Positions 1 through 6,859 of a DNA stretch of 6,859 nt are shown here, piece by piece. The notes beneath the pieces were generated by a model. That model was not told the DNA's origin. It saw only the letters and a list, made by a program, of their open reading frames with translations, and searched no databases. How positions within the stretch are numbered: the stretch's first letter is position 1; each line of letters starts with the position of its first letter. The stretch covers positions 1-6,859 of the forward strand of contig JAUWZG010000056.1 in assembly GCA_030615425.1 (NCBI GenBank), given 5' to 3'. This stretch comes from Dehalococcoidia bacterium. GTDB lineage: Bacteria > Chloroflexota > Dehalococcoidia > Dehalococcoidales > BS750m-G39. The position numbers and the translations under genes were made by a program.

Positions 1-224
1 CCCCGCCTCTTCTTTGCCTCCTCTGGTGACTCCTCTTTCCCCTTGGGCAGGGGCACCCGGCAGGGTCCCATACCACAATTGCTGCAACAACTGCCCACCG
101 AGCCTATAGGACAAGGCTTCATCGCTTCAGCTCTATCAAAAGCAGTATTCGCCCCATCACCGGCTGCTTTTTCAATCATCCTAACACTGGCGCTATCAAT
201 GCTCTTGGTCTCTTCTTCTGCCAT
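1..224 (-). CDS. cooS: Ni-dependent CO dehydrogenase catalytic subunit, N-terminal 74 codons (partial)
   Basis: Interconverts CO and CO2 at a Ni-Fe-S C-cluster; in the acetyl-CoA pathway it supplies CO to acetyl-CoA synthase. Only the first 74 codons are present and the gene runs off the low-coordinate edge. The visible part carries the N-terminal iron-sulfur region: Cys38, Cys46, Cys47, Cys50 and Cys55, within CPIGSVGSCCSNCGMGPCR. This spacing matches the D-cluster (first two) and B-cluster cysteines of characterised CooS (Cys39, 47, 48, 51, 56 in Carboxydothermus CODH-II, from memory); the last B-cluster Cys would lie beyond the edge. The start ATG at 224 is preceded by GGAAGGGG about 9 nt upstream; a nearby ATG at 231 is out of frame. 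It lies 32 nt behind acsD, as the last visible gene of the operon. The C-cluster ligands cannot be seen, so it is uncertain whether this is a monofunctional CooS or the AcsA subunit of a CODH/ACS complex. Confidence 0.9.
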   Translation of the reverse strand, partial: MAEEETKSIDSASVRMIEKAAGDGANTAFDRAEAMKPCPIGSVGSCCSNCGMGPCRVPLPKGKEESPEEAKKRR

Positions 225-256: not shown

Positions 257-1204
257 TCAGGAAGCTGTCAATTCAGCTGTCATCTCTCGAACCAACTTTA
301 TTGCCTCGGGATGCCTCATAATCATCACGTCCCCCCCAGCCAGAATCAGCACCATGGCTGACATTGCTTCCAACAAGATTCCCCGCTTCTTGGCATCCCC
401 AAGCTTGGGGTCTTCCTCCGTTGGGATTTTTACTTCCTTGGTCTTCCACGCCTCTTTAGATATATTACAGATGAGAGGGAACTGGAGCTTTTCATCCTGC
501 TGGGTGAGCCCGGCCATCCTCATTCTCTCCATTACTGAGTAGCAATACTCAATGCCATAGCCGATGCAACTGACAGTAGGGTCCATTACAATCAATTCGT
601 CAGGGACACCCAGGTTGCCCAGCAGAATATTAAGCTGCTTGGCTAGGTTTATGTCTATAGGCGTTGACGAAACCACCGTGTGGTGATAGCCGATAGCGGC
701 AGCGCCAATCTTCTTGTAGTCTCCTTCCTCAACTGGTCCGATAATCAGATTTTTACCCTGGCAGACCTCGGTCACCTTCCTCAGAACCTCAGTATCTTTC
801 TCATGATTAGCCGTTCCCCAGACGATTAGGGGGACATCAATAGCATCAGCCACCTTCTTGACCACCTCGGCGGCTTCATCCGCCCCCCGGTCAAGCCTGT
901 TGGGGTCAGTGCTTACTAGTTGCAGGCAAATCATCTCCGCCCCGTAATCGTCAACGCACTTCTTTGCCCAGGCTACCGGGTCATCGGTCACCCCTTTAAA
1001 CGGCTCCAGGGCAGCCTCAGCCCACTCCTGGGGTGGCATGTCCCAGACCTCCATAGCTATTTTGGGTAGGTTGGGCATCTCCCCCTCAAAAAGGTAAAGC
1101 GGGTAGCATGTCTCCCCGCCAACTGTTACCGCTTTCTCACTGCTGCCCAGCTTTATCTCCTTAATCTTGCCGCTATACGCTGTCTTAGGGATTTCAAATG
1201 CCAT
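257..1204 (-). CDS. acsD: Corrinoid iron-sulfur protein small subunit (CODH/ACS delta subunit)
   Basis: Small, TIM-barrel subunit of the corrinoid iron-sulfur protein, which carries the methyl group from methyl-THF to acetyl-CoA synthase in the cytoplasm. Family hallmarks in order (315-aa numbering): GGETCYPLYLFEGEMPNLP near 29-47, DPVAWAKKCVDDYGAEMICLQL near 75-96, VPLIVWGTANHEKDTEVL near 124-141, SPID-type STPIDINLAKQLNILLGNLG near 180-199, MDPTVSCIGYGIEY near 207-220, then YSVMERMRMAGL and an EAWKTKE segment. Length is normal for the family. I start at the ATG at 1204, not the one at 1210: the AAGGAGGG motif directly abuts 1210 (no spacing) but is 6 nt from 1204. It lies 16 nt behind the 72-codon gene and 32 nt before cooS. 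Oddity: the segment after MDPT contains two cysteines (SCIGYGIEYC) where I recall small or hydroxyl residues. The large subunit (acsC) and acsB are not in the window. Confidence 0.93.
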   Translation of the reverse strand: MAFEIPKTAYSGKIKEIKLGSSEKAVTVGGETCYPLYLFEGEMPNLPKIAMEVWDMPPQEWAEAALEPFKGVTDDPVAWAKKCVDDYGAEMICLQLVSTDPNRLDRGADEAAEVVKKVADAIDVPLIVWGTANHEKDTEVLRKVTEVCQGKNLIIGPVEEGDYKKIGAAAIGYHHTVVSSTPIDINLAKQLNILLGNLGVPDELIVMDPTVSCIGYGIEYCYSVMERMRMAGLTQQDEKLQFPLICNISKEAWKTKEVKIPTEEDPKLGDAKKRGILLEAMSAMVLILAGGDVMIMRHPEAIKLVREMTAELTAS

Positions 1205-1210
1205 CCTCAT

Positions 1211-1220: not shown

Positions 1221-1439
1221 TCAAGCTGGATTCTTCCGCTTCTCACTACCATACCAGTCTTTGCCATACCAATATCGCTCACCACTTTGCAGATATTTGA
1301 GCTTTTCCTCTCTTCCCTCCAGTTTCTGCCTCCACTTCCCCACATCCTCCCCCTCGGGTTTGCCCTCCTCAAAGGTCGCTCCCAGCACCTCTACCTCCTC
1401 CCTGCCCGGTGCCTTCTTTTTCTCAATCTTATATTCCAT
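1221..1439 (-). CDS. Small highly charged protein of unknown function inside the Wood-Ljungdahl operon
   Basis: I do not recognise this 72-aa protein. It starts with ATG at 1439, with AGGAGGT about 9 nt upstream, and ends with TGA 16 nt before the acsD start. It lies 13 nt behind folD, so it fits the operon's spacing exactly. About 46% of residues are charged (14 Glu, 2 Asp, 12 Lys, 5 Arg), nearly balanced. It has no Cys and no His, hence no obvious metal or cluster ligands, and no signal peptide or membrane segment. The N-terminal half looks like a short strand plus a flexible Gly/Glu/Pro segment. Residues about 33-55 (VGKWRQKLEGREEKLKYLQS) could form a charged amphipathic helix. The C-terminus is aromatic and basic, with YWYGKDWYG at 56-64. 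Position and ribosome binding site argue for a real gene rather than chance. A small accessory or scaffold protein of the pathway is a guess from context only. Confidence 0.7.
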   Translation of the reverse strand: MEYKIEKKKAPGREEVEVLGATFEEGKPEGEDVGKWRQKLEGREEKLKYLQSGERYWYGKDWYGSEKRKNPA

Positions 1440-1452
1440 CCTTAACTACCTC

Positions 1453-2340
1453 CTAGGCTATGCCGGCGGCTAATTTTGCCGCTCTTACTGTATTTAGCAT
1501 AAGCATGGTTATAGTCATAGGTCCTACCCCACCAGGAACCGGGGTAATGGCTCTAGCCTTCTCCTTAACCGCTTCAAAGTCAACATCCCCGCAGAGGATT
1601 CTCTTGCCTTCAGCAGTCTTCCCGATTTGGTTAACACCGACATCAATTACCACCACCCCCTCTTTAACCATATCAGCGGTGATAGCTTTGGCTTTCCCTG
1701 CAGCCACAATTAGTATATCAGCCCTCCTGGTATGAAAAGCCATATCCTTGGTTTTAGTGTGGCATACAGTTACGGTGGCATTAGCCCCGTCCCTCTTCTG
1801 GAGCAGGATGTTGGCGATGGGTTTGCCGACGATGTTGCTTCTGCCAACGACAACTACTTCAGCACCCTCAATCTGGGTGCCGGACCGAATCAAAAGCTGC
1901 TGGATGCCGGCGGGTGTGCATGGTACGTAGTCCGGCTCCCCTATCATCAGCTTGCCCACGTTTACCGGGTGGAAGCCGTCAACGTCCTTTTTGGGGTCAA
2001 TGGCGTAGAGGACTCCCCCCTCGTTTAAGTGCTTGGGCAGTGGGAGCTGGACTAAAATCCCGTGAATCTTGGGGTTTTTGTTCAGCTTGTCAATCAGGGC
2101 GACGAGCTCTTTCTGGGTGGTCTCCTCCGGCAGGTCGTGCCTTTCCGAATAGACGCCCAGCTCTTTTGAAGTTTTTTCTTTAGCGCCGACGTAGACCTGT
2201 GAAGCCGGGTCAGCACCGACAAGAACCGTGACCAGTCCGGGCACGACGTTGTGCTTCGCCTTGAGTTCGGCAATCTCCTTTTTCAGTTCTTCGCGAATCT
2301 GCACGGCGATTTCAGTGCCTCTAATAATCTGTGCTGTCAT
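1453..2340 (-). CDS. folD: Bifunctional methylene-THF dehydrogenase / methenyl-THF cyclohydrolase
   Basis: Interconverts 10-formyl-THF, 5,10-methenyl-THF and 5,10-methylene-THF in the cytoplasm, the steps after Fhs in the methyl branch. The 295-aa length is typical. The catalytic residues known from E. coli FolD fall at the same numbers: Tyr50 and Lys54 (in QVYVGAKEK), Gln98 (in VQLPLP) and Asp121 (in KKDVDGFHP). The Rossmann nucleotide-binding segment VVGRSNIVGKP is at about 164-174, and the C-terminal family signature TPVPGGVGPMT is at 266-276. The start ATG at 2340 has AAAGGGGT just upstream and is only 2 nt after the stop of the preceding cooC-like gene, suggesting translational coupling. 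The gene is followed after 13 nt by the 72-codon gene. NADP versus NAD preference cannot be settled by eye. No fchA or metF is in the window, so FolD must cover both steps unless partners are elsewhere. Confidence 0.97.
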   Translation of the reverse strand: MTAQIIRGTEIAVQIREELKKEIAELKAKHNVVPGLVTVLVGADPASQVYVGAKEKTSKELGVYSERHDLPEETTQKELVALIDKLNKNPKIHGILVQLPLPKHLNEGGVLYAIDPKKDVDGFHPVNVGKLMIGEPDYVPCTPAGIQQLLIRSGTQIEGAEVVVVGRSNIVGKPIANILLQKRDGANATVTVCHTKTKDMAFHTRRADILIVAAGKAKAITADMVKEGVVVIDVGVNQIGKTAEGKRILCGDVDFEAVKEKARAITPVPGGVGPMTITMLMLNTVRAAKLAAGIA

Positions 2341-2342
2341 TT

Positions 2343-3107
2343 TTACCCCTTTCCACCGAGAAGTTTGGTCATCAAATCACTCACTGCCCTCGCTGCCTTA
2401 GAAGTATCAGGCAGGTCAAGCAGCGGCTTTAATTTTAGGTCATACTGATATATTTCCTCATCCAAGGGAATGGTGGCGGTGGGTTTAATTCCCCATCGGT
2501 TCAATTCCTTAACCACCAGAGGGTCAAGTCCATCGGGGACAAGATTGATTACTACCGATTGCCTCTTCACCACCAGCTTGAGTTCAGCGACCAGGTCCCT
2601 TATCCGTGCCACAGTTCGAACACCCTTCACCGAATGGTCGGAGATTATAAGTAGCTCGTCAACATCTTGTGTGGTTCTCCGCGACAGATGCTCCATCCCC
2701 GCCTCATTATCCATAACCATATAGGGATAGTTTTCCACCAGGGTATCGGCAAATTTCCTCAGGATAAGATTGGGATAACAGTAACAATCCGGACCCTCTC
2801 CCCTGCCCATGGTCACCAGGTCAAGCCCCTTACTCTCAACTACAGTCTCGTTTAACTTATACTCCAGATAAGCTTCCTTGGTCATCCCGGGAGGGATGTT
2901 TATTTTCTCCTCATTAAAAGAGGCAATTATTGAGCCAATCGTTTGTTTTATGTCAAGTCCTAAACTCTCCCCCAGATTGGCGTTAGGGTCAGCATCAATA
3001 GCCAGAATTGGTCCGGCTCCATTCTTCATCAGGTAGCGGATAACCAGGCTGGCAACAGAAGTCTTCCCGCTACCGCCCTTCCCAGCCACAGCAATGTTAA
3101 AACTCAA
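2343..3107 (-). CDS. cooC: CooC/AcsF-family nickel-insertion ATPase (second paralogue)
   Basis: MinD/SIMIBI-class P-loop ATPase of the CooC family, which matures nickel sites of CO dehydrogenase or acetyl-CoA synthase. Seen in the 254-aa protein: deviant Walker A GKGGSGKT at 9-16 with signature Lys10, DADPNANLG at 38-46, the nickel-binding CxC motif Cys108-Tyr-Cys110 in GPDCYCYPN, and a switch II segment DNEAGMEHLSRR at 133-144. The start is TTG at 3107: GGAGG lies 8 nt upstream, no in-frame ATG or GTG precedes it, and an in-frame TAA lies 8 codons upstream. It sits between fhs (35 nt gap) and folD (2 nt gap). It differs clearly from the first CooC in this operon: Ser rather than Val in the P-loop, DNEAG rather than DMEAG, and a different C-terminus. 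It may serve the other nickel centre (for example the ACS A-cluster, as proposed for AcsF). That assignment is inference. Confidence 0.88.
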   Translation of the reverse strand: MSFNIAVAGKGGSGKTSVASLVIRYLMKNGAGPILAIDADPNANLGESLGLDIKQTIGSIIASFNEEKINIPPGMTKEAYLEYKLNETVVESKGLDLVTMGRGEGPDCYCYPNLILRKFADTLVENYPYMVMDNEAGMEHLSRRTTQDVDELLIISDHSVKGVRTVARIRDLVAELKLVVKRQSVVINLVPDGLDPLVVKELNRWGIKPTATIPLDEEIYQYDLKLKPLLDLPDTSKAARAVSDLMTKLLGGKG

Positions 3108-3115
3108 ACGGTTAT

Positions 3116-3120
3116 CCTCC
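3116..3120 (-). promoter_or_regulatory. Ribosome binding site supporting the TTG start of the second cooC
   Basis: On the minus strand GGAGG is followed by 8 nt and then TTG at 3107, with the P-loop only 8 codons further on. This spacing makes TTG the credible initiator. Confidence 0.7.
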
Positions 3121-3142
3121 GCTTTAATTGATTATCGGCCTA

Positions 3143-4906
3143 CTAAAATATTCCGCTGACCTTTCCCGTGTTTACATCAATGTCCACTTTTCTGAAGGCG
3201 GGGGCAGACGATGTCCCCGGCATCAGGCTGATGGTTCCAGCGCAAGGGCAGAGAAACTTTGCCCCGGAATAAATCAGCACGTCGCGGATGGGCAAATTCC
3301 ACCCTTTAGGGACACCCTTTATTGCCGGGTCATGGGTGAGAGAGAGATGAGTCTTCACCATCATGGTAGCATACTCATCATATTTAGGGTCAGACTCAAA
3401 TTTCTTAGCCTTAGCCTCGGCATCAGGAGTCCAGGCTACACCATCGGCTCCATAGACCACTTTAGCAATCTGTTCTACCCGCTCCCGCAGTTTCATTTCC
3501 ATGGGATAGAGGAATTTGAAATCGTTCTTATCCTCACAGGCTTCCTTAACCGTATCAGCCAGCTCCAGGGCACCATCGCCACCGTCTGCCCAGTGCGTGG
3601 ATACCGCGCAGCGTGCCCCGGCTGCCTCCGCCGCTTTCTTGACCATGGCTATTTCGGCTTTAGTATCGGTGTGGAAGCAATTAATGCATACCACCGGATT
3701 GATACCGGACTTCCTGATAACACCAATAAGGTGCACCATGTTGGACAGACCCTTCTCCAGGAGTCCAAGGTCCTCTTTAGTATAGGACTCAGGCAAAGGA
3801 ATACCAGCCACTACCTTGGGCCCGCCGCCATGCATCTTGAGCGCCCGAATGGTGGTGGTGAGCACTGAGACATGCGGCTTAAGACCACTGTAGCGGCACT
3901 TGACATTCCAGAACTTCTCAAAGCCGATATCGGCGGCGAAGCCACTCTCGGTAATATGGTAGTCAAACATCTTCAAGCCGATGCGGTCAGCTATGATTGA
4001 CGACTGTCCGACAGCGATATTGGCAAATGGACCGGCATGCACCATCAGTGGCTGGTATTCTACGGTACACATAAGTGTAGGATTAATGGTATTGCGCATC
4101 CAGGCGGTCATGGCACCACCCACCTCAAGGTCACCGGCAGTGATGGGGTTACCCTTCTTATCAAAGGCAACAGTAATATTGTCCATTCTCTCCCGCAGGT
4201 CAGCTAAGTCCCGGACAATGGATAGCATAGCCATCAACTCGGAGCTTACAGCAATGCCAAATTTGGACTGCATCATGAAGCCGTCCATACGACCGCCAAT
4301 GCCGATGATGATATTGCGCAGGCTCTGAGCACAGAAGTCCATAATCCAGCCCATCTCCACCCTGGTGGGGTCAATATCCAAGCGGCGCATATTGGTAAGC
4401 CTAGCCAGTTGCTCATCATCATAATTGCGCTCGTGCTGCATCCTGGCAGTAAGCGCTACCATGGCTAAGTTGTGAGCATTCATAATATCGTTGATATCGC
4501 CGGTAAGCCCCATAGAAAATTCGGTCAGGGGAATAAGCAGGGCGTTACCACCACCAGCAGCCGTGCCCTTAATGTTCATCGTCGGGCCACCCGAAGGCTG
4601 TCGGAGGGCACCACCGACATTCAGCCCCCGTTTGCCCATACCTTCCATAAGACCGCAGGCGGTAGTACTCTTCCCCTCCCCCAGTGGTGTGGGAGTTATA
4701 GCAGTTACTTCGATGTATTTACCGTCCGGCTTGTCCTTAAGGCGATCGATAATCTTCATGAAATCAAGTTTACATAGTCTGCCGTAGGGGATAATTTCAC
4801 CCTTTTCCAGGTTTAGTCTCTCCCGCCACTCATCAGGGGTGGGCATGTTTACCTCAGCTGCTTCCGAAATCTGCCAGTCCTTCATTTTTACCGCATCGTA
4901 GGCCAC
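3143..4906 (-). CDS. fhs: Formate-tetrahydrofolate ligase (10-formyl-THF synthetase), long divergent type
   Basis: ATP-dependent ligation of formate to THF, the entry of formate into the methyl branch (or ATP-yielding formate release in reverse). In the 587-aa protein: P-loop [12 protein letters not shown] at 71-82, [14 protein letters not shown] at 101-114, AAGGG and [15 protein letters not shown] nearby, [14 protein letters not shown] at 290-303, [13 protein letters not shown] at 320-332, [11 protein letters not shown] at 354-364 and a C-terminal [19 protein letters not shown] chose GTG at 4906 because AGGAGGT lies 4-5 nt upstream. The alternative TTG at 4927 overlaps the cooC stop but would place this motif inside the gene; it would add 7 residues. 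It is longer than the roughly 556-aa clostridial enzymes, and the segment I remember as LREPSLGP...GIKGGAAGGG is altered to LRQPSGGP...IKGTAAGGG. It lies 17 nt behind cooC and is followed 35 nt later by the second cooC. Confidence 0.95.
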
Positions 4907-4910
4907 AGGA

Positions 4911-4916
4911 ACCTCC
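4911..4916 (-). promoter_or_regulatory. Ribosome binding site that decides the fhs start
   Basis: GGAGGT on the minus strand lies just upstream of GTG at 4906 (TCCT between) but downstream of the alternative TTG at 4927. This favours the GTG start and a protein beginning MAYDAVKM. Confidence 0.75.
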
Positions 4917-4923
4917 TTTTTAA

Positions 4924-5700
4924 TCAATTTGTTGAAACGGTAGACAACAGAGCCTGATAGATATTTCTAACTTCCCTAATAATCTGGGGGCTAGAGTCAA
5001 GGAGAGGAAGATTGGCGAGGTCAGCTTCAACTAGGGCTTGGTCATAGGGGATAAAACCGAGGAATTCAAAACCTGGCAGGCTAGAAGTTAGGAATTCTCT
5101 ATCCGATTGGCTCCGGATTTTGTTTCCTACTATTGCAATATTATGTAAGCCAATCTCTTGTGCCAGTTTACCGATACTATCGACAGTTTCAATACTTCGT
5201 CTGCCCGCTTCCACTACTACAATCAATCTATCTACTGCCCTAGCTGTGGCTCGTCCCAGATGCTCTACACCAGCCTCCATATCCAGAATAACTACTTCAT
5301 CTCTTCCCAGGAGCAGATGGGTAATTAAGGCTTGCAGGAGGGCGTTTTCTGGGCAATAGCAACCAGTACCGCCCTTTTTAATTCGCCCCATTACCATTAA
5401 TCTAATGCCATTATATTTTAGGGAATACTTCTCTGGCAAATCATCCACTTTAGGATTTAGCTTAAAAAAGCTCCCCGCCTTACCGGCTGGTGCCCCTGTC
5501 CGCTCCTCAATAAGAGCGCTCATCTCAGATATAGGGGTTATCTCGTCAGAATGGGGGAAACCAAGGGTGGCGGCTAGGTTGGAATCGGGGTCAGCATCTA
5601 TGGCTAAAACGGAGTGGCCAGCCTCAGCGAAAGTTCGGGAAAGGAGAGAGGCTAATATGGTCTTCCCCACTCCACCCTTACCGCTAATAGCAATCTTCAT
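4924..5700 (-). CDS. cooC: CO dehydrogenase nickel-insertion ATPase CooC, first gene of the operon
   Basis: Cytoplasmic ATPase that binds nickel at a dimer-interface CxC motif and promotes Ni insertion into the CO dehydrogenase C-cluster. The 258-aa protein shows the classical pattern: deviant Walker A GKGGVGKT at 7-14 with signature Lys8, DADPDSNLA at 36-44, Cys114-Tyr-Cys116 in GTGCYCPEN, and switch [17 protein letters not shown] at 140-154. This matches characterised Carboxydothermus CooC (CxC at 112/114, from memory) in position and length, and more closely than the second paralogue. The ATG at 5700 is the natural family start, but I see no Shine-Dalgarno motif before it (AACAAGATTCCG), unlike most downstream genes. 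It is the first gene after the candidate promoter at 5792-5820, with an approximately 85-nt leader. Its TGA lies 17 nt before the preferred fhs start. Confidence 0.93.
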
Positions 5701-6159: not shown

Positions 6160-6859
6160 TTATCCCTGCTTAGTCCTCTGCTCCTGGATAAGCTTTTCCC
6201 CATACTCAAGCAGAAGCTTGGCTCGCTCTGGGGATACCTTCTTTGATTCCAAGTAGGCTTTGAGGGCATCAGAAGGGGCAATCTCTTCAGCAGTCCATTG
6301 CCCCAGTCTGAGGCGGGTCTCCCGCTTAATGTCCTGGGCGATGGTAAAGTAGTGAGCCTCCCGCGCCATATTCCTGATATCATTATCTCTGAGCTGACCT
6401 TCAATCTCCGTCGGCAGGCTAATCTGGAGCCGCACTATGGCATCCCTGACCTTGTCTTGCTGCTCGGCGATAGCTCTGAGCACCGTTGATGTCGGCTCAG
6501 CATCCTGTGGCTCTATATTAATATCGATGGTGACAAAGCGGCGCCCAACTACCTGGTGAAAGTCAAAGGAAGTCCGCCTTTTGCCTGTTTCACTATCCGG
6601 CTCAATTTCTACCAGATAAAATCCCTTATCATCTTCCCCTTCGCTGAAATCCAGCCGCTCCAGACTACCGGCATAAACCACCGGCGGGTTATGGCTTAAG
6701 ACCTGGTGCTTATGAATATGACCCAAGGCGATATAATCAAAGGCGGGATGGGCAACATTGCTCAGCAGCAAGGCATGCTCCTGCCCTATGGTCATTGACC
6801 TCTCTGAGCCTACCTGGGCGCCGGAGACCCAGACATGGGCAGCCAGTATGGCAGGCAGT
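6160..6859 (-). CDS. sbcD: SbcD/Mre11-type DNA exonuclease subunit, C-terminal part (partial)
   Basis: Metal-dependent nuclease subunit that, with the SbcC/Rad50 ATPase, cleaves hairpins and processes double-strand breaks. The window holds the last 232 residues; the frame is open to the high-coordinate edge, so the ATG at 6795 is internal. Visible features from the edge: AILAAHVWVSGAQVGSERS (metal-ligand His of the calcineurin-like phosphoesterase fold, at about visible residue 8), YIALGHIHKHQ with the GHxH metal motif at 46-49, then PPVVYAGSLERLDF at 58-71 and KGFYLVE, followed by the C-terminal capping domain. The first phosphoesterase motifs (DxH, GNHD) lie outside the window. The gene that follows is the ABM protein, not sbcC, which usually lies next to sbcD. 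It could equally be called a Mre11-like exonuclease; the family is clear, the exact subtype is not. Confidence 0.88.
   Translation of the reverse strand, partial: LPAILAAHVWVSGAQVGSERSMTIGQEHALLLSNVAHPAFDYIALGHIHKHQVLSHNPPVVYAGSLERLDFSEGEDDKGFYLVEIEPDSETGKRRTSFDFHQVVGRRFVTIDINIEPQDAEPTSTVLRAIAEQQDKVRDAIVRLQISLPTEIEGQLRDNDIRNMAREAHYFTIAQDIKRETRLRLGQWTAEEIAPSDALKAYLESKKVSPERAKLLLEYGEKLIQEQRTKQG

Follow-up and report, generated by a model that had tools for sequence, protein, structure and literature searches.

A conserved small protein linked to acsD in bacterial CODH/ACS gene clusters, with a possible role as a tether for the corrinoid protein

CODH/ACS is the core of the Wood–Ljungdahl pathway and makes acetyl-CoA from CO2. 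In a Dehalococcoidia gene cluster for this pathway, a gene of 72 codons with no family name lies between folD and acsD, which raises the question of whether it is a real gene and, if so, which of the surrounding enzymes it serves. The window, by which we mean the whole stretch of 6,859 nucleotides analyzed, encodes the 72-aa protein MEYKIEKKKAPGREEVEVLGATFEEGKPEGEDVGKWRQKLEGREEKLKYLQSGERYWYGKDWYGSEKRKNPA (translation of 1221–1439, minus strand), and we use the label SP for its unnamed family. Read along the minus strand, the gene order is an sbcD-like end, an ABM-domain gene, a CooC-type ATPase, fhs, another CooC-type ATPase, folD, SP, acsD, and the start of acsA. The features of the cluster are as follows.

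3..224, minus strand: acsA/cooS (CODH), first 74 codons, running off the window (TIGR01702, matched in part at E 6e-9, under the curated cut-off)
257..1210, minus strand: acsD, small subunit of the corrinoid iron-sulfur protein, CoFeSP (PF03599 E 2e-54, NF003377, PDB relatives)
1221..1439, minus strand: the SP gene, 72 aa with an ATG start, a conserved CODH/ACS-associated small protein
1224..1277, minus strand: codons of the strongly conserved SP tail, RYWYGKDWYGSEKRKNPA (residues 55–72, up to the C-terminus), from alignments of 28 and 98 sequences and from where the motif stands in 223 of 225 proteins
1284..1334, minus strand: codons of the second conserved block of SP, WRQKLEGREEKLKYLQS (residues 36–52), mostly helical by prediction, from the same alignments and AlphaFold2
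1449..1454, minus strand: ribosome binding site AGGAGG of SP, read from the sequence and overlapping the folD stop codon
1453..2340, minus strand: folD (Pfam and NCBIfam), the usual but not constant upstream neighbor of SP
2343..3107, minus strand: P-loop ATPase, CooC-type (CbiA domain; no NCBIfam equivalog)
3143..4927, minus strand: formate--tetrahydrofolate ligase, fhs, of the same cluster (Pfam and NCBIfam)
4924..5700, minus strand: second CooC-type ATPase of the same cluster (CbiA domain)

The CbiA-domain ATPases, here and in the loci of relatives, are presumably CooC, a label we take from their domain and place. Ahead of the cluster, the same strand carries a gene for an ABM-domain protein (PF03992; 5838–6137) and the terminal part of a gene for an SbcD-like nuclease (6160–6858), the latter below the NCBIfam cut-off.

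Most of what the initial annotation read directly from the letters is borne out. The strong ribosome binding site is an AGGAGG 9 nt ahead of the ATG, and the tight spacing of 13 and 16 nt is correct: 13 nt separate the gene from folD, and 16 nt separate it from acsD with an acsD start at 1204, or 10 nt with the upstream ATG at 1210. The start at 1204 matches that of relatives (MAFEIPK...) and by this comparison is probably the conserved one. The composition, given as 46% charged with neither Cys nor His, counts out at 45.8% D+E+K+R, 0 Cys and 0 His. The aromatic motif YWYGKDWYG, described as the C-terminus, is present but occupies residues 56–64 and is followed by SEKRKNPA, so that it lies near the end rather than at it.

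The SP gene is real, and its family has no name. A protein database search returned 2444 proteins related to SP at E≤1, the best 120 of which are all 72 aa long (the window's own at 100% identity, the others at 86–94%), and a scan of GTDB contigs yielded 67 SP loci. Over 40 sequences the median dN/dS (Nei–Gojobori; 122 usable pairs of 780) is 0.105 and the maximum 0.32. The initial annotation had proposed that missing homologues or neutral substitution would expose the gene as a chance open frame; relatives are plentiful and the substitution pattern is not neutral. Such a frame might be suspected from the shortness of the gene and the low confidence of its predicted fold, and there is next to no chance of it given the 2444 relatives, the low dN/dS, a fixed tail motif, and the fusions to AcsD described below; we regard it as ruled out.

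The claim that the protein belongs to no known family also holds against Pfam (0 families at E≤1 for the SP of the window) and NCBIfam (no model). Comparison of 98 SP members with both collections gave scattered weak matches only, the best (E 0.0053, in five of the 98) to a viral peptidase model. CdhD (PF03599) is not among the four families matched by any of the 98 at E≤0.1, and at the same threshold no member matches the archaeal CODH epsilon subunit (CdhB) in Pfam or NCBIfam. Homology to a solved protein was considered and set aside, as a search of PDB chains with the SP profile gave none below E 0.1 and nothing convincing at its best (phage gp16.7, E 0.14). Our literature search, thin on subscription journals, found no paper recognizable from its title or the first lines of its abstract as dealing with such a protein. 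We regard SP as a new accessory subunit of an enzyme system that is itself well known.

The system is indicated by the neighbors of the gene. At all 66 of the 67 GTDB loci in which the 3′ side of SP is present, the next recognized gene is acsD, on the same strand and an estimated −5 to 229 nt away; the one remaining record stops on that side. Upstream of SP are folD (55 loci), cooC (11), or the record end (1). These counts derive from tblastn against 12 reference families, and the labels AcsA, AcsB, AcsC, AcsE, AcsV, ferredoxin, and Fur were checked on one representative each. SP also directly precedes acsD in all 44 stand-alone loci (L068–L094, L105–L109, and L170–L181, some of which repeat earlier loci) and in all 20 further pieces (some repeating other loci). 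Where folD is absent, a CooC-type gene adjoins SP, and in L006 4.8 kb separate folD from SP, which still sits beside acsD. FolD is therefore ruled out as the partner of SP, and of the acsD/folD context that the initial annotation proposed to check the acsD half proved constant and the folD half did not. Four loci (L222, L223, L225, L226) have the order acsA-acsB-acsC-acsE-(acsV)-cooC-SP-acsD-folD; acsD is here apart from the other enzyme genes and SP stays with it, so the link is specifically between SP and acsD.

Some loci carry additional genes. A Fur-family gene lies between acsD and acsA in L016, L024, L030, L034, L036, and L107 (PF01475 checked in L016), a CooF-like 4Fe-4S ferredoxin gene follows acsD in L042, L046, L056, L059, L061, L063, and L228 (Fer4 checked in L061), and a tandem folD pair precedes SP in L007, L025, L029, L033, and L107.

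Moreover, the two genes are fused in some genomes. In 10 of 44 SP-bearing Desulfobacterota genomes (L095–L104), SP forms the C-terminus of AcsD, in a layout of ~310 AcsD residues, a linker of roughly 115–140 residues, and the SP domain. Nine database proteins share this layout, and one of the nine is the same as the L096 protein. SP thus displays the gene fusion, here with AcsD, that marks a dedicated CODH/ACS accessory gene, and the constant link that goes with such a gene is found across phyla (acsD adjacency in 66/66 and 20/20; AcsB, as detailed below, in 41/44 and 6/6 SP genomes). We conclude that SP is almost certainly a dedicated partner of AcsD/CODH-ACS. The small size and charge of SP, and the Fur-family gene in some of the operons, could instead suggest an operon-encoded regulator or sensor outside the enzyme machinery; we think this very improbable, as SP is fused to AcsD, adjoins acsD strictly over several phyla, and matches no DNA-binding family in Pfam or NCBIfam.

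SP is distinct from AcsD/CdhD itself (PF03599; PDB 2h9a, 4djd, 9fzy). It is the constant neighbor of that protein, and in some Desulfobacterota its C-terminal domain, but has no PF03599 match, and the solved AcsD chains (309–323 aa) have no SP match. Other lengthened AcsD proteins occur. Six of 20 loci of SP-less Desulfobacterota (L117, L120, L121, L122, L125, L128) encode an AcsD with an Ala/Lys-rich extension of ~200 aa, which like the SP fusion lengthens AcsD and has a basic, partly aromatic end, but which gives no SP profile match and has a different tail, of the type RWR.RG.GV.K in L120, L121, and L122; the tail shared by these three is perhaps another docking element. In L119, L123, and L124, AcsD is the C-terminal part of a protein of 892–992 aa, the N-terminal part of which in L124 matches methylenetetrahydrofolate reductase (PF02219, E 3e-41).

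The titles of the 67 GTDB records name mainly Dehalococcoidia, other Chloroflexi, Deltaproteobacteria, Myxococcales, Spirochaetes, and Ca. Ratteibacteria, the Deltaproteobacteria including Syntrophus, Syntrophorhabdus, and Ca. Zymogenus (titles of metagenome records). Two records titled Deltaproteobacteria (L017, L022) group with Dehalococcoidia on the AcsD tree, and the titles given to some metagenome bins may be wrong. No archaeal title occurs among the 67, and our genome surveys covered bacterial phyla only. Under the phylum names presumed for these draws from the record titles of their central loci, the SP profile detected the family in 6 of 301 evenly drawn genomes of Chloroflexota (phylum of G001), 44 of 297 of Desulfobacterota (G004), and 4 of 100 of Spirochaetota (G010), as well as in 12 of 35 genomes of Ratteibacteria (G011) and all seven of an unnamed phylum (G012). 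Within the class of G001, 5 of 197 genomes have SP and 84 of 197 match the AcsB domain PF03598, some of these matches being short or weak and possibly not AcsB. By these counts, SP is widespread but patchy.

Within this patchy distribution, SP keeps company with AcsB, scored as PF03598 over the cut-off in tests that treat related genomes as independent. In the Desulfobacterota draw, PF03598 is present in 41 of 44 SP genomes and 201 of 297 overall (Fisher p 3.6e-5), or in 38 of 44 and 185 of 297 once 16 weak matches are removed (p 3e-4); in the Chloroflexota draw it is present in all six SP genomes and in 43 of 301 overall (p 6e-6). Against this stand the many AcsB-bearing genomes with no detectable SP: 160 of 201 in Desulfobacterota, 37 of 43 in Chloroflexota (20 of the 37 with CODH), and 79 of the 84 AcsB-domain genomes in the class of G001. 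As most AcsB-bearing genomes surveyed are without SP, it is not a general need of CODH/ACS. The three SP-bearing Desulfobacterota without AcsB, of which G597 has a full-length CODH and G315 and G479 have none above the cut-off, likely reflect incomplete assemblies.

The association with CODH can be examined in the same way. CODH above the cut-off is found in 26 of the 43 PF03598-positive Chloroflexota, including all six with SP (p 0.066), and acsA is seen in 57 of the 67 SP loci, the other 10 pieces ending before its usual place, and in 17 of the 20 further pieces, the other three being records of 4.1–6.9 kb. On the other side, the AcsD-SP gene of L096 directly precedes acsB with no acsA between them, and none occurs in 602 kb of this genome of ~2.8 Mb. 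Eleven genomes (L130–L139, L142) have the order fhs-acsV-cooC-folD-acsD-acsB-acsC, with neither acsA nor SP, and searches of the rest of each genome found no SP anywhere and no CODH above the cut-off. On an AcsD tree built by a quick method with SH-aLRT support, the 11 form one group (support 92) nested in the Chloroflexota SP clade (61 rows, support 96). By this nesting, SP and CODH were probably lost on one branch, a single event on the AcsD tree. The clade is probably Dehalococcoides and Dehalogenimonas. The incomplete pathway of Dehalococcoides is mentioned in the available text of PMC5736913 and PMC7918482.

Across the SP-less loci L110–L139 and L142, the SP profile matched no ORF of at least 30 aa, and inspection by eye recognized nothing upstream of acsD, one locus having unread bases there. 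Only AcsD positions 67, 202, and 277 passed our filter for changes in the clade lacking SP and CODH, too few to outline an interface. A second CODH loss, in the Desulfobacterota L116, L123, and L124, was considered and rejected, since those genomes have CODH elsewhere.

Since the clade retains AcsB, AcsC, and AcsD without SP, CoFeSP and ACS seem able to exchange methyl groups in its absence, and SP is more likely tied to CODH. This bears on the idea that SP serves only CoFeSP, as a structural or gating subunit that caps AcsD or the corrinoid and does not touch CODH/ACS. The link specifically to acsD and the fusion to AcsD are in keeping with that idea, and the aromatic residues of SP could stack on the corrin ring; we nevertheless consider it unlikely, because a clade with AcsD, AcsC, and AcsB but no CODH has no SP and because a model of the fusion protein, built with only 17 fused rows, does not place SP against AcsD with confidence.

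The joint absence of SP and CODH would also suit a factor acting transiently, with the CooC-type ATPases, in the assembly or maturation of CODH or AcsD. So would the CooC-type gene, which is the recognized gene immediately ahead of SP in 11 of 67 loci and shortly precedes folD in many more. CODH accessory proteins include CooC, CooT, and CooJ. CooC-type genes share the cluster of SP, but SP matches no ATPase family. Nickel chaperones of the CooT/CooJ type carry metal-binding Cys or His residues, and the SP of the window has none with which to hold nickel or iron. Moreover, ten genomes fuse SP permanently to AcsD, which would be odd for a transient CODH chaperone, and the CODH-less operons retain a CooC-type gene but not SP. 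Maturation is accordingly a rather unlikely role, though slightly less so than that of a subunit of CoFeSP alone.

The end of SP is strongly conserved. Among 225 proteins (P0002–P0226), a set made up of the nearest relatives of two queries plus the nine fusions and so not a random sample, 223 have exactly four residues after GSE[KR]R; of the two exceptions, one has six residues after the motif and the other, P0149, reads GSESR. In the alignment of 98 rows, W36, R55, Y56, G64, S65, E66, and R68 are invariant. That the motif is at the very end both in separate SP and in fused SP suggests from these alignments that a free C-terminus matters. One gene is cut short: in L107 (5146–5313, G069) SP stops after ERY, before the conserved tail, though acsA follows, a case that reflects decay or an assembly fault and, taken at face value, speaks against a tether.

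The predicted structure is sparse. AlphaFold2 models SP alone (98 rows) with a mean pLDDT of 67 and a pTM of 0.36, placing helices at 35–39 and 43–52 and two strands in the N-terminal part. For the fusion P0122 (37 rows, 17 fused), the AcsD barrel is predicted confidently, and after residue 320 the ten-residue blocks have pLDDT values of 33–64. In a Foldseek search with this model, CoFeSP small subunits, including 9fzy, and other TIM-barrel-type enzymes are the top listed matches, with nothing for the SP part among the matches listed. A protein that hardly folds by itself and hangs on a flexible linker would suit a docking role, for which these low-confidence models are weak evidence.

The initial annotation had offered an accessory subunit of the corrinoid protein or of CODH/ACS, and the acsD linkage, the AcsD fusion, the co-occurrence with AcsB, and the joint absence of SP and CODH favor that general suggestion. 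More specifically, we tentatively propose that SP is an accessory subunit that tethers the corrinoid protein, via AcsD, to CODH/ACS, a reading that we find plausible without yet being persuaded of it; The protein that carries the methyl group may in this way be kept at the enzyme that makes CO. In some bacterial CODH/ACS systems, SP would be an accessory subunit present in stoichiometric amounts, attached to AcsD and reaching from it to CODH/ACS. Its helical block and exposed C-terminal tail (WYGSEKRKxPA) would dock CoFeSP onto the CODH-ACS core, and once docked the methyl donor would stay close to the A-cluster, with easier turnover, much as in archaea, where CoFeSP is part of one stable complex. 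Physical binding by SP, CODH-ACS as its second partner, and the tether role itself are what we infer from linkage, fusion, and shared loss.

The SP-less majority of AcsB-bearing genomes, the single event behind the shared loss of SP and CODH, and the L096 locus all weigh against a tether, as do two further observations. The PDB, which includes 9fzy, a solved entry titled as a CODH/ACS-CoFeSP complex, holds no convincing match to the SP profile. In L055 and L105, AcsD is fused to AcsA through a low-complexity Pro/Ala-rich linker (ORFs 5315–8686, 1123 aa, and 1922–5362, 1146 aa, respectively), and both loci keep a separate SP upstream, which argues that SP is not simply a replaceable linker.

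As the alpha subunit carries the corrinoid, the beta subunit corresponds to AcsD. The available text of PMC11474084 sets the standalone CoFeSP of acetogens against a stable archaeal complex, which shares with SP the proposed outcome, a CoFeSP held to CODH/ACS. It also describes archaeal ACS as extended at its C-terminus by about 75 aa of unknown function, like SP a short flexible tail on a CODH/ACS component. Neither likeness extends to sequence as far as the PDB covers it, where the SP profile matched none of the chains at E<0.1. A bolder version of the tether proposal, possible yet more doubtful, is that SP is a widespread subunit by which a bacterial CODH/ACS-CoFeSP system that would otherwise dissociate becomes a tethered complex, its free peptide WYGSEKRKxPA binding a conserved pocket of CODH/ACS and positioning or gating methyl transfer; some bacteria would then have a functional counterpart of archaeal ACDS made from an unrelated protein.

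How CoFeSP is recruited to CODH/ACS in bacteria is still being worked out. Syntrophus and Syntrophorhabdus are genera that can be grown, and since relatives of SP occur in metagenome records titled with these names, the role of SP is open to experiment; the natural AcsD-SP fusion is a ready single-chain construct for structural work. At mostly 55–90 aa, SP is easily missed, and it would change the CODH/ACS parts list in many uncultured bacteria.
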